NCBI GenBank assembly: GCA_017938695.1
Contig: JAGBBA010000075.1
Coordinates: 62,001 to 126,000 of the forward strand
Reading direction: 5' to 3'
DNA from: Clostridia bacterium
GTDB lineage: Bacteria; Bacillota; Clostridia; Christensenellales; Aristaeellaceae
Length of the DNA stretch: 64,000 nt
Part shown: one piece after another, positions 709 to 62,039 of the stretch
How the letters are laid out: each line of letters starts with the position of its first letter
Position numbering within the stretch: position 1 is the stretch's first letter
The notes under the pieces: model-generated
The model's input: only the letters and a program-made list of their open reading frames with translations
Told to the model about the DNA's origin: nothing
Databases searched by the model: none
Program-made: the position numbers and the translations under genes

Positions 709-786
709 GTCAGGGCTCTGCCCTGACAACCCGGGAGGGGCACTGCCCCTCCACCCTGCGAAGGGTCTTCGACCCTTTCGAAACCC
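709..786 (+). repeat. Hairpin array A, locus 1 (three hairpins)
   Basis: Three consecutive palindromes: GTCAGGG-CTCTG-CCCTGAC, GGAGGGG-CACTG-CCCCTCC, and the terminal CGAAGGGTC-TTCG-ACCCTTTCG followed by AAACCC. Linkers are AACCCG and ACCCTG. The array starts 5 nt after the stop of the LCP gene. It is one of at least 13 related loci in this window. Confidence 0.85.
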
Positions 787-811
787 TTTCGGAGATGCCC
801 GGCGTTCACGC

Positions 812-850
812 TCAATTCCTAATTCATCATTCCTAATTCATCATTCATCT
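812..850 (+). repeat. AATTC-rich short tandem repeat
   Basis: The bases between hairpin array 1 and the next ribosome binding site are built from repeated AATTC(A/C)T-like units (AATTCCTAATTCATCATTCC, then AATTCATCATTCAT). A similar run of ATTCCGC units lies at 39098-39130. No gene or promoter is evident here. Confidence 0.6.
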
Positions 851-868
851 CTACAAAGGAGCTGTCCT

Positions 869-2644
869 ATGAAGTGTCCCAACTGCGGCCAATGGAACCG
901 CGCTTCCCTGCCACACTGCCAGAAATGCGGCACGCCCCTGGATGCTGCCGAAGGGCAGCTTCCTTCCTGGAAGACCACCCTGCGGGACGATCAGAAGGGC
1001 AAGGAGTATATCCGCGTGGATGAAGACGGCGAAGCCAGCGTGACCGCCGACAGCCGTGATGCACTGGCCCAGGAAATGGCCGAGCTGAAGAAGCGCAAGG
1101 CCGAGGGTACCCGTGTGCAGCGTCAGCTCCGCCGCGAGAGTGCTGAGCGCGGCTCTGCGCCGTCCTCCATGACCATCCGCACCCACGCCACCGTGGACAC
1201 CTTCTGGAATGTGGAGGACAATCCGCGCTCCACTGTGCGCATCCGCCGCAGCGGCGAGAAAGACCCGGAAGAAGGCCGCACGCACCGCATCAACAATGCC
1301 TGGCAGGACTCCCGCAGCTATGACCCCCTGTGGGAGGAGCAGGAGATGTACGGCACCTGGCAGCTGCCCCAGAACACCCAGTTCACCGGCAAGCTACCCA
1401 GCCGCTCCCGCGGCCTGCGCCACCTGGCACGCGTTCTTGTTGCCATCATCATGGCTGCGCTGCTGGGCCTGACCATTTTCTTCGGCTATAACTACTTCAA
1501 GGATCGCCAGGCCGAGCGCAACCTGGCCAACCAGGCCAGCGTTACTGCCTCCATCAAGGATGACCTGGCCGCCCATACCATCCTCATTCCCGGCGAGGAC
1601 GGCCAGCAGATCTACATCCGCGAGCTCCACACGTCCTACATCGTCACCGGCGGCTTTGCCACGGTGGAGATCGCCGACCACGTCTGGTATGACGAGCTGA
1701 CCGATTTCATCGGCGAAAGCATGGACGTGACCCTCACCCCCTTTGTGAAGACCTCCGGCGGCCAGCAAAAGCCCCTGGACCCCATCACCTACGAGATCTC
1801 CATCCCCCTCAGCCCCATCACGCTGAACACCCCTGACGGTCTGCGTACCGAGGTCGCAACTGCCATGTACAGCATGAACTTCACCGTGCGCCCCGGCTCC
1901 ACCGTGTACATTAACGATGAAGATGTGTCCGACACCGTTAATTCCGATGACGGCTCCTTCACCTACAACGCCACCGTGCAGCCCATTGGCGATAACAACT
2001 TTGTGGTGCGCGTCCGCAGCCAGTACTGCCGTGAGAACTCCATGACCGTCACCCTCTACCGCGAACCCCAGGAGATCCCCCTGGACCTTTCGGCGGACAC
2101 TTATTCATCCACCAGCAAGAAGGCCATTGAGATCCGCGCCACCACCCTGCCCGGCGCAAAGGTGGAGATCCTCTCCCCCCACAGCGACCTGAACATCACC
2201 GAGATCGACTCCACCGGCGCCTTCAGCTTCTACGCCGTGTTTGACAAGATCGGCTACAACACCGTGGTCATCACGGCATCCGACCCCGGCAAGAAGACCT
2301 CCCGCGTGGAGTACCAGGTCTACTACCTCCCCAACCCCGACGAATACACCATCAAGGCCTGGCCGCTGAATGCCGCCGAGTATTCCGAGCTGCTGGCCAA
2401 CAATAACGTCCGCACCGCCAATACTCAGGTGTATGTAGCCATTGGCACCATTGCCGAGATCATCAGCGACAAGCCGCAGATGGCCATCATGTACACCTCC
2501 GAGGACGGCAAGAGCCAGCCCGTGCTGCTGGAGAACTTCACCAAAACCACCTGGAAGGTAGGCGAATACTACCGCATCTACGGCGATGCCAACGGCACCT
2601 ATTCCAACATGCCGCGCCTGTCCGCCCGCTACACCTACTGGTAA
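869..2644 (+). CDS. Zinc-ribbon, single-pass membrane protein with extracellular Ig-like region
   Basis: 591 residues. The N terminus has a zinc ribbon with Cys 3, 6, 17 and 20 (CPNC...CQKC). A charged linker follows, then one transmembrane helix at about 188-208, and a long extracytoplasmic region of beta-rich repeats (about 320-490) resembling bacterial Ig-like modules. The C-terminal ~90 residues look OB-like, though I cannot name the fold. The start is supported by AAGGAGCTG 8 nt upstream. The gene at 39180-41060 has the same Cys spacing and the same ribbon-linker-helix plan but a different outer domain, so they form a small architectural family. Function is unknown; a sensor or envelope scaffold is possible. 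The flavoprotein gene starts 11 nt downstream and is probably co-transcribed. Confidence 0.7.
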   Translation: MKCPNCGQWNRASLPHCQKCGTPLDAAEGQLPSWKTTLRDDQKGKEYIRVDEDGEASVTADSRDALAQEMAELKKRKAEGTRVQRQLRRESAERGSAPSSMTIRTHATVDTFWNVEDNPRSTVRIRRSGEKDPEEGRTHRINNAWQDSRSYDPLWEEQEMYGTWQLPQNTQFTGKLPSRSRGLRHLARVLVAIIMAALLGLTIFFGYNYFKDRQAERNLANQASVTASIKDDLAAHTILIPGEDGQQIYIRELHTSYIVTGGFATVEIADHVWYDELTDFIGESMDVTLTPFVKTSGGQQKPLDPITYEISIPLSPITLNTPDGLRTEVATAMYSMNFTVRPGSTVYINDEDVSDTVNSDDGSFTYNATVQPIGDNNFVVRVRSQYCRENSMTVTLYREPQEIPLDLSADTYSSTSKKAIEIRATTLPGAKVEILSPHSDLNITEIDSTGAFSFYAVFDKIGYNTVVITASDPGKKTSRVEYQVYYLPNPDEYTIKAWPLNAAEYSELLANNNVRTANTQVYVAIGTIAEIISDKPQMAIMYTSEDGKSQPVLLENFTKTTWKVGEYYRIYGDANGTYSNMPRLSARYTYW

Positions 2645-2655
2645 GGAGGATCATC

Positions 2656-3501
2656 ATGAACTGCGATCTGCTGATCATCGGTTCCGGCCCTGCCGCCTGG
2701 AGCTGCGCCCTCACCGCCCGCCAGCGTGACCTGAGCGTTGTGGTGGCTGCGGCTGAATCCGCCACCGGCTGGCTGCAGAAGGCCGAGCGCATCGACAACT
2801 ATCCCGGCATGCCCGCCGTTTCCGGCAAGGACATGCTGCGGATCTTCCGCCAGCAGGCCGAGGAAGCCGGTGCTCAGGTCGTCAGCAGCCTGGCGCGCCA
2901 GGTGCAGCCCCTGGGCGATATCTACATGACCCTGTGCGGCAATGATATCATCGAATCCCGGGCCGTGGTGCTGGCCATGGGTGCTGCCCGGCCCAAGCTG
3001 CTCCCCGGCGAGGAGGAGCTCATCGGCCAGGGTGTCAGCTGGTGCGGCACCTGCGACGGCATGTTCTACCGCGGCAAGGATGTAGCCGTTCTCTCCGCCT
3101 GGCACGGCGGCATCGAAGAGGCCGAGTTCCTCTCCCGGCTGTGCGCCAAGGTGGACTATTACACCATGGCCGCCCACGACCTGCCTGACGAACGCCCCTA
3201 TGCCCTGCACGAAGGCAAGCCCGCCGAGCTCGTCCGCCAGGAGGACAAGATCATCGTCAAGACCGATGTTTCTGCCGATGCCTACGACGGCGTGTTCATC
3301 TTCCGCCCGGCGGTTTCCCCGGCCAAGCTGCTGCCCGGCCTGGAGCTGGAGGGCGCGTTCATCCCCGTTGACCGCCGCATGGCCACCAACCTGCCCCGCG
3401 TCTATGCCGCCGGCGACTGCACCGGTCAGCCCCTGCAAATTGCCAAGGCTGTCGGCGAGGGTAACATTGCCGCCATTTCTGCGGCTGAGGATTTGAAGTA
3501 A
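2656..3501 (+). CDS. Thioredoxin-reductase-like flavoprotein lacking NADPH motifs
   Basis: 281 residues of the low-molecular-weight thioredoxin reductase fold. FAD is bound through GSGPAA (9-14) and the GDC segment near 253. The redox pair is Cys130-x-x-Cys133 in WCGTCDG. The region that should bind NADPH has no GxGxxA/G (it reads VLSAWHGG at 145-152), and no HRRxxxR motif follows. That absence is the hallmark of ferredoxin-dependent flavin thioredoxin reductases (FFTR) and related pyridine-nucleotide-independent forms known in Clostridia, so electrons may come from ferredoxin, which would fit the hydrogenase-rich gene content. A standard NADPH enzyme with degenerate motifs is less likely. 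No thioredoxin gene is adjacent. The start has an AAGGAGG site 6 nt upstream. A hairpin array begins 2 nt after the stop. Confidence 0.8.
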   Translation: MNCDLLIIGSGPAAWSCALTARQRDLSVVVAAAESATGWLQKAERIDNYPGMPAVSGKDMLRIFRQQAEEAGAQVVSSLARQVQPLGDIYMTLCGNDIIESRAVVLAMGAARPKLLPGEEELIGQGVSWCGTCDGMFYRGKDVAVLSAWHGGIEEAEFLSRLCAKVDYYTMAAHDLPDERPYALHEGKPAELVRQEDKIIVKTDVSADAYDGVFIFRPAVSPAKLLPGLELEGAFIPVDRRMATNLPRVYAAGDCTGQPLQIAKAVGEGNIAAISAAEDLK

Positions 3502-3503
3502 CG

Positions 3504-3567
3504 CCAGAGGGGCTTTCAGCCCCTCTGGACTCCCTAACCAAAGGGCCCTTCGGCCCTCTGGACTCCC
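3504..3567 (+). repeat. Hairpin array A, locus 2 (two hairpins)
   Basis: CCAGAGGGGC-TTTCA-GCCCCTCTGG then ACTCCC, followed by CCAAAGGGCC-CTTC-GGCCCTCTGG then ACTCCC. The array starts 2 nt after the stop of the flavoprotein gene and runs almost to the ribosome binding site of the next gene. Confidence 0.85.
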
Positions 3568-3584
3568 ATTTTTTGAGGTGCTGC

Positions 3585-4337
3585 ATGAAGCGTTTTCTTG
3601 TTTGTTTGCTGATGGTGCTGCTCTGCGCGACGGCTGCGGCTGAGCCACTTAGTTACACCATGGATCTTGCCGGTACGTATTGCTATCCCGAGGGGTGCGA
3701 TGAGCCTGATGCAGCGTATATTTACCGGTATGCGTATCCGCTGATGGCCGGGGATGACCAGGTCAGCCTGATGATCAACGAGTTCTACACCTATATGGTG
3801 GATGATGCGCTGGCCTTTGCTGTGCCCATGGCTGCTGAGGAAGTCGCCATGGATGGCATTCAGTCCTACACCAATATCAGCAGCGAGGTCACCTGCAACA
3901 GCGACGATTTCTTCTCCGTGAAGATTAGCAATGAGTCCTTCATGGGGGCGGCTACGTCCAATGTGGTCAGCGGCCATGTGTTTGCCCGCAGCGGCGACAA
4001 GGCTGGCACCGTGGTCAGCCTGCCCTATCTGCTGGGGATTCTCAACGCTGACGAAACCGACTCCTGGCTGTTGGACCGCCAGACCGCCAAGGCCGACACC
4101 ATGGTGCGTACCCTGGTGTGGGATATCATTCAGGAGCAGCTGGCCGACGGGCTTATCGCCTATTACGACGATCTGACCTACGAGGTCTTCGAGGGGAATT
4201 TCTACCCGGAAGAGGATTTCTACCTGGATGAATCCGGCAGCCTGGTGTTCTTCCTGCAGGAAGGCACCGTTGCCCCGGTATCCGAAGGCGTGCTGTACTT
4301 CCCCTTCACCCTGGAAGAGCTGCTGGACGAGATTTGA
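3585..4337 (+). CDS. Secreted DUF3298-like protein
   Basis: 250 residues from the ATG at 3585, chosen because GAGG lies 6 nt upstream; a TTG at 3573 is in frame but overlaps that site. It opens with a signal peptide (MKRFLVCLLMVLLCATAAA). The body resembles the extracytoplasmic DUF4163/DUF3298 region of RsiV-like proteins: an N-terminal part with LMINEFY and an acidic C-terminal part ending in a strand (GVLYFPFTLEELLDEI). RsiV-type proteins are anti-sigma factors that bind lysozyme, but no transmembrane segment or cytoplasmic anti-sigma domain is present, so this is only the outer domain. It would act outside the membrane; the ligand is unknown. A bidirectional terminator follows. Confidence 0.65.
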   Translation: MKRFLVCLLMVLLCATAAAEPLSYTMDLAGTYCYPEGCDEPDAAYIYRYAYPLMAGDDQVSLMINEFYTYMVDDALAFAVPMAAEEVAMDGIQSYTNISSEVTCNSDDFFSVKISNESFMGAATSNVVSGHVFARSGDKAGTVVSLPYLLGILNADETDSWLLDRQTAKADTMVRTLVWDIIQEQLADGLIAYYDDLTYEVFEGNFYPEEDFYLDESGSLVFFLQEGTVAPVSEGVLYFPFTLEELLDEI

Positions 4338-4344
4338 CCCATGC

Positions 4345-4380
4345 AAAAAGGAGGAGCCGTTGCTCCTCCTTATTTCTTTT
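4345..4380. terminator. Bidirectional intrinsic terminator
   Basis: A 10-bp stem, AAGGAGGAGC / GCTCCTCCTT (4348-4357 and 4362-4371) with a CGTT loop, has a T-rich tract to the right and an A tract to the left. It can end transcripts of both converging genes and overlaps the 3' end of the leftward methyltransferase gene. Confidence 0.8.
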
Positions 4381-5161
4381 GGAACACATCCAGCATGTGG
4401 TGCGTCACGCCCACCATATCCGGCCGTTCGCAAATACAGAAGTGGTATTTCATATACAGGTCAAACATTTCGTCGTCCATGGCATCCACGGTGTCCTCCA
4501 TGAACTCCGTAGCCATGTCCGTGCCCACATAGTGCAGCCGCTGCACGGTGAAGCCATCCATCAGGCTGTCGATGTCCTCCCGGCGGTACAGCTGGAACAG
4601 CTCCTCCGGCGTGGAGGTCAGCTTGAAGGTTTCCGGGTCGGTCAGTGCCTTGTAGCGATCCAGCTTCAGCATGTTTTTCTTGAAGCAGAAGCTGACCACC
4701 GTGGCATCGTTGTTGCAGTAGGCAGCAAACACCACGCCGCCCTTTTTCGTCACGCGGATGGCCTCTGCCAGGGCCTGCCTTTGTTCCTCCACTGTGAACA
4801 GGTGATACATAGGGCCCAGCAGCAGGGTGATGTCATAGGTTTCGTCAGCAAAGGCGGACAGATCCAGCGCATTCCCCTGACGGATGGTGATGTTCTCGCC
4901 AGGCTGGGTGTTCTGTTCAAACACATCAATGTTGTGCTGGATCAACTCCACCGCGTCCACCTGGTAGCCCATGCGGGCCAGGGTGTGGCTGTACCGGCCC
5001 GTGCCCGCGCCGATCTCGATGATCCTCGCCCCTGGGTGCAGATACTTTTCCACATACCGCATGGTGGTCAGGTATTCCACCATGCCATGGCGGCTGCGCA
5101 GGCGGCTGTCTTCGTCGCAATGGTTGGTGTAGAATTGTGTCAGACTTTCCAGCGTGGTCAT
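4370..5161 (-). CDS. Class I SAM-dependent methyltransferase
   Basis: 263 residues. Motif I is EIGAGTGRYS at about 48-57, the acidic residue after strand 2 is in VDAVEL, motif II region is GNALDL, and DITLLLGPMYHL carries the fourth strand; this is a methyltransferase-11-type Rossmann fold using S-adenosylmethionine. The substrate cannot be read from the sequence. The start has GGGAGGTGCAGC immediately upstream, and a TTGACA-17-TAAGAT promoter lies just beyond. The gene is monocistronic, divergent from ilvE and convergent with the DUF3298-like gene. Confidence 0.82.
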   Translation of the reverse strand: MTTLESLTQFYTNHCDEDSRLRSRHGMVEYLTTMRYVEKYLHPGARIIEIGAGTGRYSHTLARMGYQVDAVELIQHNIDVFEQNTQPGENITIRQGNALDLSAFADETYDITLLLGPMYHLFTVEEQRQALAEAIRVTKKGGVVFAAYCNNDATVVSFCFKKNMLKLDRYKALTDPETFKLTSTPEELFQLYRREDIDSLMDGFTVQRLHYVGTDMATEFMEDTVDAMDDEMFDLYMKYHFCICERPDMVGVTHHMLDVFQKK

Positions 5162-5187
5162 GCTGCACCTCCCGAAAATGATGTGTT

Positions 5188-5216
5188 ATCTTACCACAAA
5201 TCGCGCCCCGTGTCAA
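5188..5216 (-). promoter_or_regulatory. Sigma-A type promoter of the methyltransferase gene
   Basis: On the minus strand TTGACA (5211-5216) is followed by a 17-bp spacer and TAAGAT (5188-5193), placing the transcript start about 20 nt ahead of the start codon. It lies back to back with the ilvE promoter. Confidence 0.75.
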
Positions 5217-5266
5217 AAAACAGTATAAGTACAAGAAATACCCCTGGAAGCCAGGTGGGGCAAGGC

Positions 5267-5294
5267 TTGACAAGCTGTTGATGAACGGTATAAT
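5267..5294 (+). promoter_or_regulatory. Consensus promoter of ilvE
   Basis: TTGACA (5267-5272), a 16-bp spacer, and TATAAT (5289-5294). Both hexamers match the housekeeping consensus exactly. The transcript would start near 5301, giving a leader of about 65 nt before the ATG at 5366. Confidence 0.85.
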
Positions 5295-5365
5295 AGAAGA
5301 ATACACGAGGAAAAAACGTGTTCCCTGTCGAAAGGTCGGCAGGTAAGAAGCGGAGGCGTTTTCAA

Positions 5366-6433
5366 ATGCAGGAGATCAAAGTTACTCTTTCCACGGCCCT
5401 TAAGCAAAAGCCCCAGGACGAATCCCAGCTGGGCTTTGGCCGCATCTTTACCGATCACATGTTCCTGATGAATTACGAAAAGGGCAAAGGCTGGTATGAT
5501 CCCCGCATCGTGCCCTATGGCGATTTCTCTATGGATCCTGCCAGCATGGTGCTGCATTACGGCCAGGCCATCTTCGAGGGCACCAAGGCCTATCGCCGTG
5601 CCGATGGCGGCATCCAGCTCTTCCGGCCTCAGGCTAATATGGCCCGCATGTCCTCCAGTGCCCAGCGTATGTGCATGCCCGCCCTGGACGAGGAAATGGC
5701 CCTGGAAGGTCTGAAGAAGCTGATCGAGGTGGAAAAGGACTGGGTTCCCCACCAGGAAGGCACCAGCCTGTACATCCGCCCCACCATGATCGCCCTGGAC
5801 GTGCAGCTGGGCGTGCACGCCTCCAACAAGTATCTGTTCTACATCATCCTCTCCCCCGTGGGTGCCTATTATAAAGAGGGCCTGAAGCCCGTTGGCATCT
5901 ACGTGGAGGATGCGTATGTCCGTGCCGTGCGCGGCGGCGTGGGCTTCACCAAGTGCGCCGGCAACTATGCCGCCTCCATCCTGGCTGGCGAAGTGGCCGC
6001 CACCAAGGGCTATGCTCAGGTGCTGTGGCTGGACGGCGTGGAGCAGCGTTACATCGAAGAAGTGGGTGCCATGAACATGATGTTCGCCTATGGCAACAAG
6101 ATCGTGACCCCCATGCTCAACGGCTCCATCCTGCCGGGCATCACCCGCAACAGCGTGCTGACCCTGGCGCAGCAGCTGGGCTACGAGGTGGAGGAAAAGC
6201 GCATCGCCATCGACGAGGTCTTTGCTGATATCAAGTCCGGCAAGTGCACCGAGGCCTTCGGCACCGGCACCGCCGCCGTCATCTCCCCCGTGGGCGAATT
6301 GTGCTGGAAGGACGAGAAGCTCACCGTGGGCGATGGCAACATCGGCCCTGTGGCCCAGAAGCTCTACGATACCCTCACCGGTATCCAGACGGGCAAGCTG
6401 GCCGACGAAAACAACTGGATCGTAAAACTGTGA
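5366..6433 (+). CDS. ilvE: Branched-chain amino acid aminotransferase
   Basis: 355 residues from the ATG at 5366, which has CGGAGG 9 nt upstream; an in-frame GTG at 5318 lacks a site and would add 16 non-conserved residues. This is a fold-type IV PLP enzyme of the larger (~355 aa) eukaryote-like BCAT group. The PLP lysine is K196 in GVGFTKCAGNYAAS, with YIRPT (136-140) and the later EEVGAMNMMF and GTGTAAVISP phosphate-binding loops. It interconverts leucine, isoleucine and valine with their 2-oxo acids in the cytoplasm. It may be co-transcribed with the unrecognised gene that starts 35 nt downstream. Confidence 0.95.
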   Translation: MQEIKVTLSTALKQKPQDESQLGFGRIFTDHMFLMNYEKGKGWYDPRIVPYGDFSMDPASMVLHYGQAIFEGTKAYRRADGGIQLFRPQANMARMSSSAQRMCMPALDEEMALEGLKKLIEVEKDWVPHQEGTSLYIRPTMIALDVQLGVHASNKYLFYIILSPVGAYYKEGLKPVGIYVEDAYVRAVRGGVGFTKCAGNYAASILAGEVAATKGYAQVLWLDGVEQRYIEEVGAMNMMFAYGNKIVTPMLNGSILPGITRNSVLTLAQQLGYEVEEKRIAIDEVFADIKSGKCTEAFGTGTAAVISPVGELCWKDEKLTVGDGNIGPVAQKLYDTLTGIQTGKLADENNWIVKL

Positions 6434-6468
6434 AAACCCGCTTACCCTATGGCGGGTGAGGAGGTTTC

Positions 6469-7512: not shown

Positions 7513-7513
7513 C

Positions 7514-17526: not shown

Positions 17527-17690
17527 CGCGTCGCGGTGCGCCCTCCGCGCACCGTGACCCCTGCACAAATCCCACCCACTACGCCACCCTAAAGCGGGAG
17601 TCCAGAGGGCCGAACGGCCCTTTGGCAGGGTTTCCAAAGGGGCAGAGCCCCTTTGGCGGTGGAGTCCAGAGGAGGCAGAGCCTCCTCTGG
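17527..17690 (-). repeat. Hairpin array A plus module B, locus 4
   Basis: Read leftward from the stop of the putative sensory hydrogenase gene (0 nt gap): CCAGAGGAGGC-TCTG-CCTCCTCTGG then ACTCC; CCAAAGGGGC-TCTG-CCCCTTTGG then AAACCC; CCAAAGGGCC-GTTC-GGCCCTCTGG then ACTCCC. Array span is 17596-17690. Module B occupies 17561-17527 (GGGGTCACGG...CCGCGACGCG) with TGCGC/GCGCA arms. Confidence 0.85.
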
Positions 17691-19016: not shown

Positions 19017-19091
19017 CCAGAGGCGCTGCCTCTGGACTCCGCCAGGGCTCTGCCCTGGACCCGCGAAGGGCTTTCAGCCCTTTCGAAACCC
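19017..19091 (+). repeat. Hairpin array A, locus 5 (three hairpins)
   Basis: CCAGAGG-CGCTG-CCTCTGG then ACTCCG; CCAGGG-CTCTG-CCCTGG then ACCCG; terminal CGAAGGGC-TTTCA-GCCCTTTCG then AAACCC. It is oriented opposite to both flanking leftward genes, so it is not a 3'-end-linked copy. Confidence 0.85.
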
Positions 19092-22990: not shown

Positions 22991-23120
22991 CCAGAGAGGG
23001 CGTTGCCCTCTCTGGACTCTCCCACCAAAGGGCTTTCAGCCCTCTGGACTCCCTTTCGGGGATATCGGACGGGACGATCTCCGAGTGGGGTCACGGTGCG
23101 CAACAGGCGCACCGCGACGC
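22991..23120 (+). repeat. Hairpin array A plus module B, locus 6
   Basis: Starts at the base after the stop codon: CCAGAGAGGGC-GTT-GCCCTCTCTGG then ACTCTCCCA; CCAAAGGGC-TTTCA-GCCCTCTGG then ACTCCC; then a TTCGGGGATATCGG linker and module B at 23087-23120 (GGGGTCACGG-TGCGC-AACAG-GCGCA-CCGCGACGC). Confidence 0.85.
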
Positions 23121-33059: not shown

Positions 33060-33151
33060 CCAGGGCCCTTCGGCCCTGGACCCATTCGGGGATAGCCATG
33101 GTACGCCAGCCAAGCCGGGGTCACGGCGCATAACGGATGCGCCGCGACGCG
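33060..33151 (+). repeat. Hairpin plus module B composite, locus 7
   Basis: CCAGGGCC-CTTC-GGCCCTGG, then ACCCATTCGGGGATAGCC..., then module B at 33117-33151 with CGCAT/ATGCG arms. The segment is nearly identical to 57581-57672 (about four substitutions in the 70-bp linker and module B). It lies ahead of a leftward gene, not after a stop codon. Confidence 0.85.
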
Positions 33152-38679: not shown

Positions 38680-38850
38680 CCAAAGGGCTCTGCCCTTTGG
38701 AAACCCGCTTAAGGGCTCTGCCCTTAAGAATCCCGCGAAGGGCCGTTCGGCCCTTTCGAAACCCACTTTGCGAAAGCAGAGTGGGTTTTCTCTTTGTTGG
38801 GGTCACGGCGCAGGGTCTTCGACCCGTTTCATTCGGATGCGCCGCGACGC
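38680..38850 (+). repeat. Hairpin array A plus interrupted module B, locus 8
   Basis: Begins at the base after the metY stop: CCAAAGGG-CTCTG-CCCTTTGG then AAACCCG; CTTAAGGG-CTCTG-CCCTTAAG then AATCCCG; terminal CGAAGGGCC-GTTC-GGCCCTTTCG then AAACCC (to 38763). Module B spans 38799-38850 but its loop carries about 17 extra bases (GGGTCTTCGACCC, another small hairpin). Confidence 0.88.
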
Positions 38851-41821: not shown

Positions 41822-41961
41822 GGGTTTCGAAAGGGCCGAAGGCCCTTCGCAGGATTCTTAAGGGCAGCGCCCTTAAGCGGGTTGTCAGGGCAGAGCCCTG
41901 ACCGGGATCCCCAAGGGCAGAGCCCTTGGGCGGGGTTTCCAAAGGGGCAGAGCCCCTTTGG
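41822..41961 (-). repeat. Hairpin array A, locus 9 (five hairpins)
   Basis: The longest array. Read leftward from the stop codon with no gap: CCAAAGGGGC-TCTG-CCCCTTTGG / CCCAAGGGC-TCTG-CCCTTGGGG / GTCAGGGC-TCTG-CCCTGAC / CTTAAGGGC-GCTG-CCCTTAAG / terminal CGAAGGGCC-TTC-GGCCCTTTCG then AAACCC. Linkers are AAACCCC, ATCCC, AACCC and AATCCT. Each arm pair differs but stays self-complementary. Confidence 0.9.
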
Positions 41962-52361: not shown

Positions 52362-52506
52362 CCAGGGCTCTGCCCTGGACCCGGCAGGGGCTCTGCCCCT
52401 GCACCCCGCGAAGGGCCCTTCGGCCCTTTCGAAACCCTTTGTGCGGGGTTGGGCTTGGTTGTTTTCTTCAAGGGGTCACGGTGCGCAACGGGCGCACCGC
52501 GACGCG
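52362..52506 (+). repeat. Hairpin array A plus module B, locus 10
   Basis: CCAGGG-CTCTG-CCCTGG then ACCCG; GCAGGGG-CTCTG-CCCCTGC then ACCCCG; terminal CGAAGGGCC-CTTC-GGCCCTTTCG then AAACCC (to 52437); a GTGCGGGGTTGGGC linker; module B at 52472-52506 with TGCGC/GCGCA arms. It sits between divergent genes, not after a stop codon. Confidence 0.88.
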
Positions 52507-52560
52507 GTTCTTGCAGCGGCGGTGGCTGCATATGGTGGGTAACAAGAAGGGGTGTGCGTG

Positions 52561-53628
52561 ATGAAACATCGCCGTTTGATTGTTCTGGCAGCACTGCTAT
52601 TGTCTGGCATTGTTGTTTGGTTTGGCTTGCATGCAAAGCCTGCAAGGGAGCATCTTCCCGGGGCGGAGCAGGCGCAGCGGCAGCTATTGCGGATTTGGGT
52701 GGTGGATGCCATTGGCGGCAGTGAGAGCTGGTTGCGGGACTGCCTTAAGGATTGGGAGAAGGCGAATCCCGGGGCGATGACTTTTCTGCGCAGGGTTTCC
52801 GCTGACGAGTTGGTTCGGGAGGATGCGGTGCTGCCGGACATTCTGCTGTATACGCCGGGGAGCATTGCCGAGCCTGACAAGTTGTTTTTGCCGCTTTCCG
52901 GGGAAACCGGGGTGAAGGAGGAATTGCTCCGGGCAGGGCGGTGGAAGGGGCAGCAATATGGGTTGCCGCTGTGTTTTGGAGGGTATGCCCTGGCCATTGA
53001 CAGCAGCATTGAGCCCCACCTGGCCGTTACGCCTGCGCCCACCACGCTGCTGGGCAAACCAAGGGTTACGGCTGATCCGGCGGCAACGCCCACGCCTGGA
53101 TTCCCGGCCAGTGCGACGCTGCTGGCGCCCAAGGGATGCGGACTGTTCACCCTGGGGCTGATATTGGATGAACGTCCTGCCCTGCCCGAAGGTTTTGCCA
53201 CTACGGACGCCGCTGATGTCTTCCTCCGGTTTCAGGCAAAGCAGGCTTCCTCGGCCCTGCTGACCACCGGGCAGGTCACCGCACTGGGCAGCACCGTGCC
53301 GCTGCGCATCATGACGCCCGGACAGGTCATCACCGACCAGGTTTTCTTCGCCAGTGTTTTTCCGGGGGCAAGCAATTCCGCCGCCCAGCTGTTGACTTAT
53401 CTCACCTCGGCAGAGGCGCAGCGCAAGCTATCCGGCCAGGGGCTACACACCGTCCGGGATGATCTGCGCCTGTATGTTTCCGGCACGGAGGCACTCATCG
53501 AAACTGCAGCCAGCCACAGCCTGGCGGCCATCAACGCCTATGGGAACGCTGCCGACACCGAGGCGGCGGCCTGGCAGTTTTTCCATGGCCGCATCACCCT
53601 GGATGACGCTCTGCTCCCCCTTTTGTGA
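52561..53628 (+). CDS. Extracellular solute-binding-like protein with membrane anchor
   Basis: 355 residues from ATG 52561. The N terminus (HRRLIVLAALLLSGIVVWFGL) is an uncleaved anchor or signal. The rest has the type II periplasmic-binding-protein layout: LLRIWVVDAIGGSESWLRDCLKDWEKANPG, LPDILLYTPG, GQQYGLPLCFGGYALAIDSS and LTSAEAQRKLSGQGLHTV. A Thr/Pro-rich insertion lies at about 155-185. No transporter genes are adjacent, so it may act alone as a sensor or in another process. Codon use is less C-rich at third positions than its neighbours. Confidence 0.7.
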   Translation: MKHRRLIVLAALLLSGIVVWFGLHAKPAREHLPGAEQAQRQLLRIWVVDAIGGSESWLRDCLKDWEKANPGAMTFLRRVSADELVREDAVLPDILLYTPGSIAEPDKLFLPLSGETGVKEELLRAGRWKGQQYGLPLCFGGYALAIDSSIEPHLAVTPAPTTLLGKPRVTADPAATPTPGFPASATLLAPKGCGLFTLGLILDERPALPEGFATTDAADVFLRFQAKQASSALLTTGQVTALGSTVPLRIMTPGQVITDQVFFASVFPGASNSAAQLLTYLTSAEAQRKLSGQGLHTVRDDLRLYVSGTEALIETAASHSLAAINAYGNAADTEAAAWQFFHGRITLDDALLPLL

Positions 53629-54554: not shown

Positions 54555-54585
54555 GTTGCTAACGACAACAGAGGAGGCACCACCA

Positions 54586-55428: not shown

Positions 55429-55434
55429 TTTTAC

Positions 55435-55480: not shown

Positions 55481-55484
55481 CGAT

Positions 55485-57248: not shown

Positions 57249-57283
57249 ACCGCGTTCCTCCTGATATTTTTTCTTCGGAGCGG

Positions 57284-57512
57284 TAAACAAAAAGCACCCG
57301 CCCCATCGCTGGGACGAATGCTGTTATCACGCATCCGCGGTTCCACCCGGCTTGTTATCACAACCACTCTTCATGCTCTATCGGGCATGACGCGCTCAAC
57401 GTCGGAGGATGGTATCCCGCAAGCACCTACGGCGCAAGCTTTCAGCCGATGGCTCGCGCTCTCTTTGCGTGGCTTCCCTGCGGACATGTTCCCCGTCATC
57501 CATCAAGATTGC
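57284..57512 (-). promoter_or_regulatory. T-box leader (tRNA-Thr) of thrS
   Basis: The leader starts near 57510. Stem I closes with ATGACG/CGTCAT, and ATACCA (57415-57410) supplies a probable ACC (Thr) specifier about 97 nt from the transcript start. The T-box GGGTGGAACCGCGG is at 57348-57335. A 12-bp terminator stem, AGCATTCGTCCC / GGGGCGGGTGCT (57322-57293), is followed by TTTTTGTTT. Uncharged tRNA-Thr would stabilise the antiterminator and allow thrS transcription. Confidence 0.92.
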
Positions 57513-57516
57513 ATCA

Positions 57517-57545
57517 AGTATAATCCACTTCTTCACAAAAGTCAA
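57517..57545 (-). promoter_or_regulatory. Promoter of the T-box/thrS transcript
   Basis: TTGACT (57540-57545), 17-bp spacer, TATACT (57517-57522) on the minus strand. Confidence 0.82.
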
Positions 57546-57549
57546 GCCC

Positions 57550-57672
57550 CCAAAGGGGCTTTGCCCCTTTGGAAACCCCACCAGGGGCATTCGCCCCTGG
57601 ACCCATTCGGGGATGGCCGTGGGACGCCAGCCAAGCAGGGGTCACGGCGCATAACGGATGCGCCGCGACGCG
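57550..57672 (+). repeat. Hairpin array A plus module B, locus 11
   Basis: CCAAAGGGGC-TTT-GCCCCTTTGG then AAACCCCA; CCAGGGGC-ATTC-GCCCCTGG then ACCCATTCGGGGATGGCC; module B at 57638-57672 with CGCAT/ATGCG arms. From 57581 on it is nearly identical to locus 7 (33060-33151), the hairpin arms differing by paired substitutions. It begins 5 bp beyond the -35 box of the thrS promoter. Confidence 0.88.
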
Positions 57673-57742
57673 GGAGAAGGGGCGTTTCATCTCCTCCGGC
57701 CTTACGGTTATCGGCCTTAGCCCCTTCGGGTTCACTCCCTTT

Positions 57743-58915
57743 TCATCGCAACGCAGCATCCAGCATTTCTGCCATCCGCGAGTGCGCGTCCTGGTTCCAG
57801 CACCATACCGCGCAGCCCAGCAAGCCGTTTTCGCGCAGCCAGGCCACCTTTTCATCAATGCTGCGCTGACTTTCGCCGCTGACAAAGGTATCGCCGTTGA
57901 ACCAGTATGCCGCGCAGGCTTCTTCGTCATAATGGGCGGTGTACCCCTGACTTTCCAGCGCAAGAATCTCGTCAAAGCTGATGGTCTTGTTGCCGCTGGT
58001 GGCTGCGCGCTGGCCCAGGCCGTTGCCGCCGCCGGTGACCTGCCGCCACACCCGGGCATAGGCCGGGAAGCCCAGCAGCATTTTGCCTTCGCTCAGTCCG
58101 GATTCAGCGAGCGTCTTCACTGCATGGTAGCCGCTGTTAGCCTTGTCCAGACCCGGGTACAGCCCGGAATGGTGCCCGGTGGTCTTGTCAAAGCCGCTCA
58201 AGTCGTAGGTCATCAGCACAGCCTGATCCACCAGCTTGTTCAGCTTGGCCCCGTCGACGGCCTCCAGCTGCTCGTTGCCGCAGCCGATGGCCACGCTCAG
58301 CAGATGATCCCGTCCCGTGGCAGCCTGACGTTCGTCCAGCCCGGCGCGGAGCAGGGCCAGCAGCTCGTACCAGTTTGCCTCATCCTCGGGGCGGCTCTTG
58401 ATGCCTGCCGAAGAAGAACCAGGGTACTCCCAGTCGATATCCACGCCCACAAAGCCGTGCTTGTCTATCAGGGCCAGGATGCTGTCCGCCAGCTTCTGCC
58501 GTCCTTCCGGCGTGGCGCATGCATCGGAAAATCCGTCTGCACCCCAGCCGCCCACGCTCACCACACCGTCGATGTGGGGATTCCGCTTCAAGAATTTCTC
58601 CACGTCCTTCACGCTGCGCCAGTGGTCGCCCGTGGCTTCACCGTTTTCAATCAGCGCAAAGGAGTAATTCAGCTGATCGATCAGGTGCGCGTGTTCGTCC
58701 TGCAAGGCCAGTCCCCCATCGTCGAAGGCGTACATCACCACGCGGCCATGCCGCCCGTCGTGCAGCTGCACCAGTTCTGCCGCATGCACCGGGTAAGGGT
58801 TCATCCCGGAATACACCGTCGTTCCCACTATCGTCATCACAACGACCCCCATCATCCACCGGCGAAGGCGATGCTTCACCGTTTTATCCTTTGTGCGCGG
58901 CTGAGTGTTCTTCAC
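57743..58915 (-). CDS. Glycoside hydrolase family 18 protein (chitinase-like)
   Basis: 390 residues. Start taken as GTG 58915 because GGAGG lies 8 nt upstream; in-frame ATGs at 58948 and 58960 have no site. A signal or anchor (MMGVVVMTIVGTTVY) precedes a GH18 barrel with GVVSVGGWGADGF and the catalytic DIDWEYP (DxxDxDxE-type; Glu is the acid), then LMTYDLSG and GFPAYARVW. It lacks carbohydrate-binding and LysM modules. It probably cleaves chitin or peptidoglycan-like beta-1,4-GlcNAc polymers outside the cell, consistent with the nearby nagA. Confidence 0.88.
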   Translation of the reverse strand: MKNTQPRTKDKTVKHRLRRWMMGVVVMTIVGTTVYSGMNPYPVHAAELVQLHDGRHGRVVMYAFDDGGLALQDEHAHLIDQLNYSFALIENGEATGDHWRSVKDVEKFLKRNPHIDGVVSVGGWGADGFSDACATPEGRQKLADSILALIDKHGFVGVDIDWEYPGSSSAGIKSRPEDEANWYELLALLRAGLDERQAATGRDHLLSVAIGCGNEQLEAVDGAKLNKLVDQAVLMTYDLSGFDKTTGHHSGLYPGLDKANSGYHAVKTLAESGLSEGKMLLGFPAYARVWRQVTGGGNGLGQRAATSGNKTISFDEILALESQGYTAHYDEEACAAYWFNGDTFVSGESQRSIDEKVAWLRENGLLGCAVWCWNQDAHSRMAEMLDAALR

Positions 58916-58946
58916 CGCGCTCACCTCCGAACAAGTTTTCGCATGC

Positions 58947-58976
58947 ATGATAGCACACACTTGCCCGGTTTGTCAC
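58947..58976 (-). promoter_or_regulatory. Probable promoter of the GH18 gene
   Basis: GTGACA (58971-58976), 18-bp spacer, TATCAT (58947-58952) on the minus strand. The upstream TTGACA is too far from this -10. Confidence 0.5.
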
Positions 58977-59009
58977 TGTCAATTGCCGCCACGCCTGTCG
59001 AAATTTGAC

Positions 59010-59038
59010 TTGACATGCACCGCATTGTGGCGTATCTT
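59010..59038 (+). promoter_or_regulatory. Promoter of udk
   Basis: TTGACA (59010-59015), 17-bp spacer, TATCTT (59033-59038). Confidence 0.72.
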
Positions 59039-59069
59039 TACCATAGACCATATGCAGGAGGTACACACC

Positions 59070-59690
59070 ATGCTGTTCATCGGCATTTGCGGAGCCAGCG
59101 GTAGCGGCAAATCCACCCTGGCGGATAGCTTGCAGGCCCGTTTGGGCGACCGCTGCTTTGTTTTGCAGCAGGACGCATACTACTACGACCACCCGGATCT
59201 GACCTTCCAGGAGCGCACGCTGCTGAATTATGACGAACCAGCCATTTTCGACCACGACCTGCTTTTGCAGGACGTAAAAACCCTGATGGCCGGTCAGCCC
59301 ATCGCCCGTAAATGCTATGATTATTCCGAGCACCGCCGCGCTGATTCCGGCGAGATCATTTACCCCCGGGACGTGCTGATCCTGGAAGGCATCCACACCT
59401 TCCACGACCCCCGGCTGTGCGAATTGATGTACCTGAAGCTGTACATGAACGTGGAAACGGACATCTGCCTCCTGCGGCGCATCCAGCGCGATATCAAGGA
59501 GCGTGCCCGGGACATCGACGGCATCTCCGCCCAGTACCTGAACACCGTAAAGCCCATGTATGACAAGTACATCAAGAATTACATCAACGAGGCGGACGTG
59601 ATCGTCGCCCGGGGCGGCAAGAATGCCCGCATCGTGGATATCCTCACCGGGTATGTAGAGGATCAATTAGCCAAGAACAACAGCCTGTAA
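59070..59690 (+). CDS. udk: Uridine kinase
   Basis: 206 residues from ATG 59070 (CAGGAGG 8 nt upstream). Walker A GICGASGSGKSTLAD (5-19), the QQDAYYYD substrate loop, YDEPAIFDHDLLLQDV, LILEGIHTF and RRIQRDIKERARDI are standard for uridine kinase. It phosphorylates uridine and cytidine to UMP/CMP in pyrimidine salvage. Monocistronic, with its own promoter and terminator. Confidence 0.92.
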   Translation: MLFIGICGASGSGKSTLADSLQARLGDRCFVLQQDAYYYDHPDLTFQERTLLNYDEPAIFDHDLLLQDVKTLMAGQPIARKCYDYSEHRRADSGEIIYPRDVLILEGIHTFHDPRLCELMYLKLYMNVETDICLLRRIQRDIKERARDIDGISAQYLNTVKPMYDKYIKNYINEADVIVARGGKNARIVDILTGYVEDQLAKNNSL

Positions 59691-59712
59691 GCAGCCAAGC
59701 GGCTGCTTTTTT
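59691..59712 (+). terminator. Terminator of udk
   Basis: GCAGCC (59691-59696), AAGC loop, GGCTGC (59701-59706), then six T. Confidence 0.88.
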
Positions 59713-59716
59713 ATTG

Positions 59717-60835
59717 TCAGGCCAGGATCCCCTTCCACTGCCAATCCCTGGACCAGCGCGTCAGCGGCGCAGGCGCACCGGCCGCCAGCCGACCGGCCAG
59801 CTTCTCCCCAATGGCATCCGCCGGGGTGGAGGTACACATCGCCGCCGCATCCTCGGGCCTGATGCCCCAGCGCAGCAGGTTTTCAAAAGCCTTGCGCATC
59901 GTCAGCACCGAACCGGCCAGCGTACCGTCCGCAAGCCGGGCCTCGCCGCCCTGCACATACACCGCCTGACCGCCCAGGCTGTACTGCCCGTCCGGCATAC
60001 CGGCAGCCTCCATGGCATCGGTGATAGCCACAGCCCTGCCGACACCCTTGGCACGCACCATCAGCCGCACCACGTCCGGGTGCAGATGAATGCCATCGCA
60101 GATCATTTCCGTAAACAGCCGGTCATCCACCAGCGCGGCCCCCGGCACGCCGGGCTCCCGGTGATGCAGCGGCGTCTGCGCATTGAAGGTGTGGGTCACA
60201 TGGGTCGCGCCCCAGTCCGCCGCCCGATGCACCTGCTCTGCCGTGGCCGCCGTGTGCCCGATGGACACATGCACCCCCAGCTTCGTCACCGCTCGGATAA
60301 ATGCTTCACTCCCGGCCCGTTCCGGTGCCAGGGTGATCAGCCGCACAGCCTCCGGCCTGCCGCCGCACATCTGCAAAAAAGCATCCATATCCGGATCCAT
60401 AAAATGCGCCTTCACCTGCGCACCGCACTTGCTTTCCGCCAGAAAAGGAGCCTCCATATGCGCGCCCAGCACCCGTGCACCGTTGTGCTCCGGCTGCTCC
60501 ATCACCCGGCGGATGCCATCCACCGCCGCTGCTGTATCCTGCACTGATGCACTCATGGTCGTGGGCAGAAACGCCGCCACACCCTCCCGGAACAATTCCC
60601 GGCTCATGCTGCGCACAGCCACCTCGCCCTGCATGGCATCCTTCCCCTTGAAGGCATGAATGTGTACATCCACAAACCCGGGCAGCAGAAAATCCCCACC
60701 CAGGTCGATGGCATCCTCATACAGCCCGTTGGCAAGCCCCTGACCCACCTCATGCACGCGCCCGTGATGCACACGCACCTCCACACCCTGGTGAAAACGC
60801 CCACCAATGAACGCCGTCGCATTACGAATCAACAT
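59717..60835 (-). CDS. nagA: N-acetylglucosamine-6-phosphate deacetylase
   Basis: 372 residues from ATG 60835, 17 nt after the predicted transcript start. Amidohydrolase fold: PGFVDVHIHAFKG (HxH), GAHMEAPFLAESKCGAQ (metal Glu), VSIGHTAAT (His), THVTHTFNA (His), GIHLHPDVV and the catalytic Asp in AITDAMEAAG. It deacetylates GlcNAc-6-P in aminosugar use and wall recycling. The usual HxHG reads HIHA, a mild change. nagB is not adjacent. With the GH18 protein 0.8 kb away it could belong to chitin or wall-sugar use. Confidence 0.92.
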   Translation of the reverse strand: MLIRNATAFIGGRFHQGVEVRVHHGRVHEVGQGLANGLYEDAIDLGGDFLLPGFVDVHIHAFKGKDAMQGEVAVRSMSRELFREGVAAFLPTTMSASVQDTAAAVDGIRRVMEQPEHNGARVLGAHMEAPFLAESKCGAQVKAHFMDPDMDAFLQMCGGRPEAVRLITLAPERAGSEAFIRAVTKLGVHVSIGHTAATAEQVHRAADWGATHVTHTFNAQTPLHHREPGVPGAALVDDRLFTEMICDGIHLHPDVVRLMVRAKGVGRAVAITDAMEAAGMPDGQYSLGGQAVYVQGGEARLADGTLAGSVLTMRKAFENLLRWGIRPEDAAAMCTSTPADAIGEKLAGRLAAGAPAPLTRWSRDWQWKGILA

Positions 60836-60858
60836 ATGCAGCACCCCAATCTGACACC

Positions 60859-60888
60859 AGTATACCCTGCCTTGAATGCACCTGTCAA
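60859..60888 (-). promoter_or_regulatory. Promoter of nagA
   Basis: TTGACA (60883-60888), 18-bp spacer, TATACT (60859-60864) on the minus strand. Confidence 0.75.
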
Positions 60889-60916
60889 TGTCTTCTCTTG
60901 TCCAATCCCCATCCCC

Positions 60917-61074
60917 CGCGTCGCGGAGCGCCCTTTGCGCTCCGTGACCCCAACAAAAGAAAAACCCACCCGGCCATCGCCGAATGGGTTTCGAAAGGGC
61001 CGAACGGCCCTTCGCAGGGTGCAGGGACAGAGTCCCTGCGGAAGGGAGTCCAGAGGGAGGGAACCTCCCTCTGG
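60917..61074 (-). repeat. Hairpin array A plus module B, locus 12
   Basis: Read leftward from the tpiA stop with no gap: CCAGAGGGAGG-TT-CCCTCCCTCTGG then ACTCCC; CCGCAGGGAC-TCTG-TCCCTGC then ACCC; terminal CGAAGGGCC-GTTC-GGCCCTTTCG then AAACCC (60986). A T-rich linker follows, then module B at 60951-60917 with AGCGC/GCGCT arms, a compensatory change relative to the TGCGC/GCGCA copies. Confidence 0.88.
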
Positions 61075-61827
61075 TTACTTGTCGTAGTTCACAACCAGGG
61101 AGAAGTCGGGAGCCTTCAGGGATGCACCGCCGATCAGGCCGCCGTCGATCTCGGGCTGAGCCATCAGGCCCTTGACGTTCTTTGGGTTCATGGAACCGCC
61201 GTACTGGATGCGTACCTTGTCGGCGATCTCCTGGCCATACTTGCGGGCCAGGGCCTTGCGGATCACGCCGATGGTCTCGTTGGCCTGCTCGTCGGTGGCG
61301 GTCAGGCCGGTGCCGATGGCCCACACGGGCTCGTAAGCCACGACCACATCGGCGACCTGCTCGTTGGTCAGGCCGGTCAGGGCGATCAGGGTCTGGTACT
61401 CCACCAGGGCATCGGTGTAGCCAGCCTCGCGCTCTTCCTTCAGCTCGCCCACGCACAGGATGACCTTCAGGCCAGCAGCCACGGCAGCCTGCACGCGCTT
61501 GTTCACGGTCGCGTCGGTCTCGCCGAAGTACTGACGGCGCTCGCTGTGGCCGATCACCACATACTCAACACCGGCAGCCACCAGCATGTCGGCACTCAGC
61601 TCGCCGGTGAAAGCACCGGAGGCAGCCCAATGCACGTTCTGGGCACCCAGGTGGATGTTGCTGCCAGCGGCAGCTTCCTTCACAGCAGCGAAGTCCACAG
61701 CAGGCACACACACAACCACGTCGCAGTTAGCGTCAGCCACCAGGGGCTTCAGCTCGTTCACCAGGGCAGCAGCCTCGGCAGGGGTCTTGTTCATCTTCCA
61801 GTTGCCAGCAATAATAGCCTTACGCAT
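61075..61827 (-). CDS. tpiA: Triosephosphate isomerase
   Basis: 250 residues. Active site: GNWKMNKT (Asn, Lys), IGHSERR (electrophilic His), [11 protein letters not shown] (catalytic Glu and loop 6), GGSMNPKN and GLIGGASLK phosphate-binding loops. It interconverts dihydroxyacetone phosphate and glyceraldehyde-3-P in glycolysis. Ribosome binding site AAAGAGG; a hairpin TTGAAACC-GCA-GGTTTCAA (61861-61843) lies just upstream of it. Separated from pgk by 468 nt of hairpin-rich sequence. Confidence 0.96.
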
Positions 61828-61886
61828 CTTTTACCTCTTTCTTTGAAACCTGCGGTTTCAAGCTTCCCTTATTTCGCCTCCGGCGA

Positions 61887-62039
61887 CCAAAGGGGCTTTG
61901 CCCCTTTGGATACCCCACCAGAGGCTCTGCCTCTGGACTCCGCGAAGGGCTTTCAGCCCTTTCGAAACCCATCGGCGGATGTGTTGCTATTGGATTTCCT
62001 TGTTGGGGTCACGGCGCATGACGGATGCGCCGCGACGCG
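61887..62039 (+). repeat. Hairpin array A plus module B, locus 13
   Basis: CCAAAGGGG-CTTTG-CCCCTTTGG; CCAGAGG-CTCTG-CCTCTGG then ACTCCG; terminal CGAAGGGC-TTTCA-GCCCTTTCG then AAACCC; linker ending TTGTT; module B at 62005-62039 with CGCAT/ATGCG arms. It is opposite to the direction of pgk and tpiA. Confidence 0.88.

Follow-up and report, generated by a model that had tools for sequence, protein, structure and literature searches.

Tandem hairpin units with linker-matched purine arms at gene ends in a Clostridia genome, read as potential intrastrand DNA triplexes

The stretch of DNA analysed here, called the window, covers 64,000 nucleotides of the draft genome of a gut bacterium of the Clostridia (contig C56, positions 62001-126000; the draft has 2.53 Mb in 76 contigs and is 87.5% complete). 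Between its genes lie arrays of short GC-rich hairpins in tandem, each hairpin being followed by a short linker, and several of the arrays begin directly at a stop codon. The linker of a unit is not arbitrary, since it can be matched to the arms of its hairpin by the code of a purine-motif DNA triplex. The reading that we favour, though with real reserve, is that each unit is a potential purine-motif class I intrastrand triplex, which would act at the level of DNA, arrest polymerases and turn over by slippage.

Arrays are oriented so that the 5' arm is G-rich when the C-rich strand is read; the strand given below is that C-rich strand, and the proposed triplex would form on the opposite, G-rich strand. 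By this convention four of the 13 arrays (11103, 17596, 41822 and 60986) lie on the minus strand. Units are named by their 5' arm, and the features are as follows.

709..786, plus strand: array GTCAGGG - GGAGGGG - CGAAGGG, starting 5 nt past a co-oriented stop codon
734-752, plus strand: middle unit of the 709 array, linker ACCCTG, not fully obeying the matching rule
3504..3567, plus strand: array CCAGAGGGG - CCAAAGGG/CCCTCTGG hybrid, 2 nt past a stop codon
11103..11195, minus strand: array CCAAAGAGGG - CCCAAGGGG - CGAAGGG, 2 nt past a stop codon
17530..17558, minus strand: tail hairpin GTCACGG...CCGCGAC of the 17596 array
17596..17690, minus strand: array CCAGAGGAGG - CCAAAGGGG - CCAAAGGG hybrid, abutting a TGA
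19017..19091, plus strand: array CCAGAGG - CCAGGG - CGAAGGG, oriented opposite to both neighbours
22991..23053, plus strand: array CCAGAGAGGG (linker ACTCTCCC) - CCAAAGGG hybrid, abutting a TAA
23090..23118, plus strand: tail hairpin after the 22991 array
33060..33083, plus strand: single unit CCAGGG, linker ACCC
33120..33148, plus strand: tail hairpin after the 33060 unit
38680..38764, plus strand: array CCAAAGGG - CTTAAGGG - CGAAGGG, abutting a TGA
38759..38788, plus strand: stem AAACCCACTTTGC...GCAGAGTGGGTTT resembling an intrinsic terminator, its 5' arm being the third-strand segment of the last unit
38802..38848, plus strand: tail hairpin with an inserted inner hairpin
41822..41961, minus strand: five-unit array CCAAAGGGG - CCCAAGGG - GTCAGGG - CTTAAGGG - CGAAGGG, abutting a TGA
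41857-41877, minus strand: CTTAAGGG unit of the 41822 array, linker AATCCT, breaking the rule
52362..52437, plus strand: array CCAGGG - GCAGGGG - CGAAGGG, in a divergent region
52475..52503, plus strand: tail hairpin after the 52362 array
57550..57604, plus strand: array CCAAAGGGG - CCAGGGG
57581-57600, plus strand: second unit of the 57550 array, linker ACCCA, lacking one C that the rule requires
57641..57669, plus strand: tail hairpin after the 57550 array
60920..60948, minus strand: tail hairpin of the 60986 array
60986..61074, minus strand: array CCAGAGGGAGG - GCAGGGAC (linker ACCCTG) - CGAAGGG, with a terminator, after the TAA of an isomerase gene (presumably triosephosphate isomerase, judging by its sequence)
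61887..61970, plus strand: array CCAAAGGGG - CCAGAGG - CGAAGGG, upstream of the same isomerase gene
62008..62036, plus strand: tail hairpin after the 61887 array

The 13 loci with runs of one to five hairpins had been reported in a preliminary description of this DNA, and re-reading all 13 coordinates confirmed that the arrays are present. A scan for hairpins (perfect stem of at least 8, or one mismatch in 12 or more positions; loop of 3 to 8) found 53 in the window, whereas three Markov shuffles gave 7, 9 and 8. For the 144-nt array at 41822 the folding z scores of the two strands are -7.6 and -8.5, a stability equalled by none of 200 shuffles; with values near -8 on either strand, simple folding does not discriminate between them. 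The window has no Rfam match at gathering score. In the whole draft genome CCCTTTCGAAACCC occurs 67 times and its reversed reading not at all, and a wider pattern, AAGGGN{3,8}CCCTTTSGAAACCC, which served for the searches described below, has 90 copies. Five of these 90, on contigs C10, C12, C52, C53 and C71, stand in the first 400 nt of their contig, where about one would be expected, and this excess makes it seem that arrays break the assembly.

Further units came from a 433-kb sample of the genome, made up of the window and 20 other stretches, most of them picked for holding CCCTTTCGAAACCC. From this sample the filters gave 61 different hairpin cores of 19 nt (two or more of them not array-like), and variation with matched arms is seen at each of the 8 positions of the stem. 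Since the hairpins were detected by pairing, the variety of the cores is a result and their pairing rate is not. The arms described there as differing from unit to unit do not vary freely; they belong to a limited alphabet of about 8 to 10 common types. Its claim that most arrays end in CGAAGGG...CCCTTTCGAAACCC is borne out for 8 of the 13 window arrays; the other five end in CCAAAGGG...CCCTCTGGACTCCC (three) or CCAGGG(G)...ACCC (two). The linkers that it listed (AAACCC, ACTCC, ACCCG) proved to go with the arms, a pattern it had overlooked.

Read on the C-rich strand, a unit runs arm, loop, arm, linker, with loops that are mostly TCT, TTT, TTC or GCT. The recurrent partners of arm and linker are CCAAAGGG with AAACCC, CCAGAGGG with ACTCCC, CTTAAGGG with AATCCC, CCCAAGGG with AATCCC or GATCCC, GTCAGGG with AACCC, GCAGGGG with ACCCC, and CCAGGG with ACCC. 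The frequent last unit of the window arrays is CGAAGGG...CCCTTTCG AAACCC. Beyond the last unit there is either a terminator built on the final AAACCC or a segment often beginning TTCGGGGATG. Behind the common units themselves come AAACCC, ACTCCC and similar linkers, in place of the U tract that directly follows the GC-rich hairpin of an intrinsic terminator. The tail hairpin GTCACGG...CCGCGAC follows 8 of the 13 window arrays in the same orientation, and a pattern search found 27 tail hairpins in the 433 kb, with array units in the bases displayed before each. A looser pattern gave 36 matches in this genome. In 31 of these an A faces a C when the C-rich strand is read, which makes a G.T on the opposite strand, and 3 more have A-T; the A facing C recurs in 11 of 12 tail hairpins from congeners. 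Some tail copies hold an inserted inner hairpin such as GGGTCTTCGACCC.

On the G-rich strand the third strand comes first, then a spacer, the purine arm, the loop and the pyrimidine arm. Taken as third strand, the linker is antiparallel to the purine arm; G stands over G, and over A there is A or T. Class I of the purine motif has been defined by the order third strand, purine arm, pyrimidine arm, by the triplets GGC, AAT and TAT, and by loops of 1-6 nt (PMC4666352); the array units agree with it in order, triplets and loops. Their assignment to this class is one by code, as read from sequence. The rule was tested on hairpins picked by pairing and by a pyrimidine run beside the loop, with orientation taken from the pyrimidine loop alone, runs of at least 5 including T, and units matched by the selecting pattern omitted; linkers were permuted 500 times. 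In this genome 76 of 108 loop-oriented hairpins match class I in full (permuted mean 20.4, maximum 30), and in the reverse orientation, with purine loops, 4 of 156 do. Counted by distinct type, the matches are 18 of 55, against a permuted maximum of 12, and in the window, with either side admitted, 22 of 29, against a maximum of 16 in 500 permutations. Over A, the third strand has A or T in 168 of 172 cells, counted only where each C of the run is aligned with C. A single rule covers dissimilar linkers, with GGGTTT over AAAGGG, GGGAGT over AGAGGG and GGGGT over AGGGG, and it also fits asymmetric pairs, for instance CCCTCTCT with ACTCTCCC (three cases) and CCTCCTCT with ACTCCTCC (two). Units of the AAAGGG and AGAGGG types reach 6 or more triplets; those of the AGGG, AGGGG and AAGGG types have 4 or 5.

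The rule was also tested in foreign DNA, on 116 stretches from a scan of named genomes with the wider pattern, which occurs in at least that many. Here 52 of 149 hairpins match (permuted maximum 23), compared with 5 of 172 in the reverse orientation; by distinct type the matches are 17 of 107 (permuted maximum 10), and 134 of 142 cells have A or T above A. Loci were sorted into groups by hand from 80 titles, with 36 untitled and nine titled loci omitted. With runs of at least 4, the matches were 30 of 69 in Alphaproteobacteria (maximum 20 in 300 permutations), 22 of 57 in other Clostridia (permuted maximum 12) and 17 of 26 in congener-like metagenome-assembled genomes (MAGs; permuted maximum 12). 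A scan for all triplex classes with zero mismatches (stems of 6 to 15, loops of 1 to 6) gave 41 of class I, 5 of class II, 11 of class III and 3 of class IV in the 433 kb, where two Markov shuffles gave none; in 855 kb of the foreign loci, a set biased by the pattern, classes I to IV numbered 122, 27, 9 and 8, and 2, 3, 0 and 1 in one shuffle. Two other relations between linker and arm were considered and rejected. Class III (pyrimidine-motif) folding of the C-rich strand or its RNA is rejected because the third base over A on the C-rich strand is mostly A, and the strict mirror that it needs occurs in none of the 108 units; a direct-repeat relation fits 1 of 108.

Stem mismatches give some indication of the strand on which pairing matters. 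Among 131 array-like units of this genome 26 have a stem mismatch, which on the C-rich strand reads A.C in 13, C.A in 1, G.T in 2 and otherwise in 10. The 256 foreign units, some of them selected by the pattern, include 37 with a mismatch (A.C 15, C.A 2, G.T 4, T.G 2, others 14). By distinct core in this genome the count is A.C 7 versus G.T 1, and an A.C there is a G.T on the G-rich strand. A recurrent form is the hybrid CCAAAGGG(G)...CCCTCTGG ACTCCC, whose linker matches the purine arm of the G-rich strand. It seems, then, that pairing is preserved better on the G-rich strand, which for a co-oriented array is the one that serves as template for the preceding gene. The A.C excess argues for DNA over sense RNA, with few independent types behind it.

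The placement of arrays was computed with our own gene finder, seeded with ten chosen open reading frames (ORFs) of the window; at least one ORF, at 52552-53628, escapes it. Clusters were located by the triplet rule itself (one mismatch allowed) or by the CGAAGGG ending; of 52 with at least two units, three inside called genes and two at stretch edges were dropped, leaving 47, and the single-unit 33060 locus and the 57550 array, with one of its two units recognised, fall outside these counts. Of the 47 arrays, 36 follow a co-oriented gene (binomial p 0.0003) and 11 are opposite to the preceding gene. Half of the co-oriented arrays (18 of 36) begin immediately at the stop codon (distance 0), and for 27 of the 36 the start falls between -5 and +7. 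A clear terminator, called by regular expression, stands behind 12 of the 36 co-oriented arrays versus 0 of the 11 opposite ones (Fisher p 0.04).

Arrays at corresponding places in related genomes differ. After the TAA of the isomerase gene there are four different arrays in this genome and in G064, G184 and G089 (98 to 100% protein identity); that of G184 has six GTCAGGG-type units in tandem, as slippage would be expected to produce. The G131 contig ends within the gene, and the more distant G203 has a different array. No array stands there in G024 (94%) or, by eye, in the other distant genomes, several of which have a terminator-like stem and a T run. On the other side of the gene, the CCAGAGG unit of the 61887 array reads CCAGAGGC/GCCTCTGG/ACTCC in this genome, G064 and G131, and CCAGAGAGGC/GCCTCTCTGG/ACTCTCC at the corresponding place in G184 and G089, so that arm, arm and linker have changed jointly. 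This joint three-part change may be an exchange of units rather than a stepwise change. Part of the arm variation that the preliminary description called compensatory reflects whole-unit exchange instead of stepwise compensation.

Elsewhere the 41822 and 52362 arrays are absent in G184, where both flanks align, and the 38680 array is absent after the orthologous gene in G184, G064, G131 and G089. No array stands before the matching downstream flank of 33060 in G131, G064 and G089, the upstream flank being unaligned. At the place of the 57550 array G184 and G064 have different arrays and G089 has none. A clean empty site with a target duplication was not found, the aligned flanks being about 3 to 30% diverged and the intergenic DNA unalignable. 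Two regions devoid of the pattern were also seen. The first 449 kb of G064 contig C39 (1-449724) hold 0 of 81 copies, where about 13 would be expected at the mean density of that genome (p about 2e-6, for a region chosen post hoc), with GC content and tetranucleotides mostly like the rest. The first 20 kb of our contig (G000:C56:1-20000), with 47.6% GC compared with about 60% in the window, has no copy either, and is perhaps an integrated element.

Within the family, the pattern was found in 29 of 200 sampled genomes and in 12 of 50 genera. The named-genome scan gave at least 122 distinct matches, and 96 of the 122 listed have a further A that extends the stem and is not required by the pattern. 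Named bearers, among 80 titles, include Methylobacterium, Gluconacetobacter, Acidomonas, Roseomonas and Desulfovibrio as well as Chloroflexi and Spirochaetaceae MAGs. Such loci led to seven genomes, six of them alphaproteobacterial and one of Desulfovibrio, that carry 6 to 51 copies each, and the inner sequences are largely genome-specific in the five genomes whose copies were listed. In the 400-kb Gluconacetobacter stretch considered below 13 of 14 copies stand directly behind another hairpin unit, mostly CAAGGG or GTCAGGG. A separate observation is a near-identical block, taacacactacactttgcaagcaaagtcgtgtgcc followed by one CCAAGGG or CCAAAGGG unit, in loci L061, L066, L073, L077, L097, L115, L116, L132 and L165, from Gemmiger, Clostridium porci, a Phascolarctobacterium MAG and others; from its sequence it looks like a widely moved element that bears one unit.

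The model that we propose starts on the G-rich strand, where a short G/A/T segment before the GC-rich hairpin would fold back antiparallel to the purine arm to give G.GC, A.AT and T.AT triplets. Whenever this strand becomes single during replication, repair or transcription, units would fold and arrest polymerases, and arrest would promote slippage and template switching, by which units could be duplicated, swapped or deleted. Insertions beside stop codons would be tolerated, or they might be kept as hard gene boundaries, sometimes together with an ordinary terminator. The matching rule, the strand bias, the gene-end placement and the turnover are computed results. From these we infer the formation of triplexes, the arrest of polymerases in this organism, and any benefit that might follow. 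The results suggest that evolution keeps natural DNA triple helices at gene ends. A stronger claim is tentative, and we would sooner doubt it than adopt it: that the three-way covariation shows triplexes to form in living bacteria and to be maintained in several phyla. They would then be a DNA boundary code that marks gene ends, for the most part on the template strand, and arrests polymerases, its arrays serving as exchangeable structural modules. The preliminary suggestion of selection on RNA or DNA structure is upheld as a DNA-structure constraint, and is revised in that the constraint joins three segments, not two, and bears more on the G-rich strand than on sense RNA.

A number of observations weigh against triplex formation. 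Many units hold 4 or 5 triplets, below the published stem threshold of 6 (PMC4666352), and in all 38 copies of the last unit in this genome the stem is bulged by one extra T in the 3' arm. Three window units (734-752, 41857-41877 and 57581-57600) break the rule. Units share ancestry or are mutual copies, so the permutations overstate their independence. In 400 kb of Gluconacetobacter, from a contig known to hold pattern copies and not centred on them, 16 of 38 mixed-run hairpins match (permuted mean 13.5, maximum 18), 15 of the 16 being of one type, and with shorter runs 33 of 67 do (mean 24.3, maximum 33). In 400 kb of the congener G064 that has almost no units, the matches are 0 of 10 and 1 of 15, and in Desulfovibrio and relatives, with runs of at least 4, 1 of 6 (permuted maximum 1). 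As to strand, 10 of the 13 A.C cases of this genome are the one hybrid described above and an eleventh is close to it; in the foreign units A.C 15 versus G.T or T.G 6 has p 0.08, and 16 of the 37 mismatches are of other kinds. According to PMC4666352, the class II motif of E. coli is unprotected from dimethyl sulfate in vivo, the footprinting did not support stable formation, and earlier work is said to have found no promoter or terminator activity of that motif. Finally, in the Desulfovibrio case discussed below, Hurt et al. ascribe the effect of 7-deaza-dGTP to weaker Watson-Crick pairing and stacking, and not to Hoogsteen loss (PMC3409199).

The arrays might instead be plain repeat families, about ten unit types whose arm and linker are inherited together and spread by recombination or slippage, with no constraint on a third strand. 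Such an origin would suit the discrete types, each with its own linker, the genome-specific inner sequences, the tandem of six units in G184 and the weak match in the unselected Gluconacetobacter stretch. We consider it unlikely, since the distinct types exceed all 500 permutations, linkers track run lengths and asymmetric purine patterns, and the rule exceeds permutation separately in Alphaproteobacteria and in Clostridia. Placement bears more on a function in sense RNA, in which hairpins of the 3' untranslated region and C-rich linkers would stabilise mRNA or load Rho near the stop codon: most arrays are co-oriented with the preceding gene and often abut its stop, and terminators occur only behind these. 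The 11 arrays of opposite orientation count against it, however, as do stem mismatches that would be A.C rather than G.U in the sense RNA (from few independent types). Rho loading does not need a linker that tracks the stem, and RNA is said to be unable to form purine-motif triplexes (PMC4666352), so that this explanation has, to our minds, a rather low probability.

The triplex reading shares the G-rich strand with a G-quadruplex, in which GGG tracts of the third strand and the purine arm would combine; most units do carry two such tracts there, and polymerase arrest with relief by 7-deaza-dGTP would fit (PMC3409199), but a quadruplex requires neither a pyrimidine arm nor the match of A to A or T, and we hold it very improbable. 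The least credible alternative is the palindrome-specific enzyme of the preliminary description, namely movement of the arrays as repetitive extragenic palindromic (REP) sequences or bacterial interspersed mosaic elements (BIMEs) by a RAYT (Y1) transposase. Intergenic palindromes whose presence varies between congeners would be expected of it. In this genome the sole match to PF01797 is one ORF of 172 aa (G000:C44:52313-52669), IS200-like by size and without flanking arrays; none was found in 12 of the 18 genus genomes searched (the 18 include this one), the drafts being incomplete. G024, which is 94% complete and has 47 pattern copies, is among the PF01797-negative genomes. We therefore rejected spread driven by RAYT, on the grounds that PF01797 is missing from array-rich drafts and that our own copy is unflanked by arrays; a RAYT seems unnecessary for the arrays.

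Whether single-strand triplexes form in cells has been an open question. A unit alphabet in which the third strand is tied to the stem would offer both evolutionary evidence and a set of natural variants, and with these variants available the question can be tested by compensatory mutation. If the triplex reading is true, breaks in assemblies and hard stops in sequencing at the gene ends of several phyla could be accounted for as well, and it would replace a reading of these repeats as hairpins only.

REP and BIME sequences are palindromic intergenic repeats in modular clusters, and the present arrays resemble them in both respects. They differ in that no RAYT was found with them, in the matching of a third strand and in the many types of arm. 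H-DNA mirror repeats have a mirror-type purine/pyrimidine symmetry in common with the units; H-DNA, however, forms within a duplex mirror tract, whereas here a single strand would fold twice and T may replace A.

Also close are the TM(ECO)/BoxC/PIT elements of E. coli and Proteobacteria (Holder et al. 2015), which are likewise GC-rich intergenic repeats with a purine-motif triplet code and a one-strand triplex, at variable loci and with a copy number that varies among close relatives (PMC4666352). TM(ECO) is, however, of class II (pyrimidine arm first, third strand 3'), has 9 triplets and one near-fixed sequence, and occurs singly or in inverted pairs at no specific distance from genes (PMC4666352). 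The present arrays are of class I by code, with 4 to 8 triplets and many arm types, tandem, often abutting stops, and with a terminator or tail attached. The TM consensus CCCTCNCCCN3-6GGGNGAGGGN3GGGNGAGGG has no match in the window and matches 1 of 309 fetched loci, which places the arrays outside that family; the single match (L122:3116-3149) lies on a Methylobacterium contig that also bears a class I unit.

A link to experiment comes from the finishing of the genome of Desulfovibrio desulfuricans ND132, when polymerases were stopped at six gaps, each of them at a junction between coding regions (Hurt et al. 2012, PMC3409199). Six 14-mers from the arrays were sought in open papers, and one occurs, once, in gap 2 of this set, which ends in CCCCCTCTGGACTCCC (PMC3409199). 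That end corresponds to the 3' arm and linker of a unit of the CCAGAGGG/ACTCCC kind, and the gap lies between coding regions and was a hard stop for polymerase; the gaps are interpreted there in terms of secondary structure (hairpins) and possible terminators, and not of triplexes or a repeat family (PMC3409199). All six gaps were amplified with 7-deaza-dGTP and ramped protocols, and also by strand-displacing Pfu with ramped cycling in the absence of 7-deaza-dGTP, and Taq alone with standard cycling amplified gap 4 only (PMC3409199). The loss of N7 in 7-deaza-dGTP would, we infer, also abolish reverse-Hoogsteen pairing. No description of class I arrays was found in the open-licence literature searched, where PMC4666352 and PMC3409199 are the related papers. 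The kind itself is known, from the class II BoxC/PIT/TM elements of E. coli; new are class I, the modular three-way-matched arrays, their placement at gene ends and their occurrence in several phyla.

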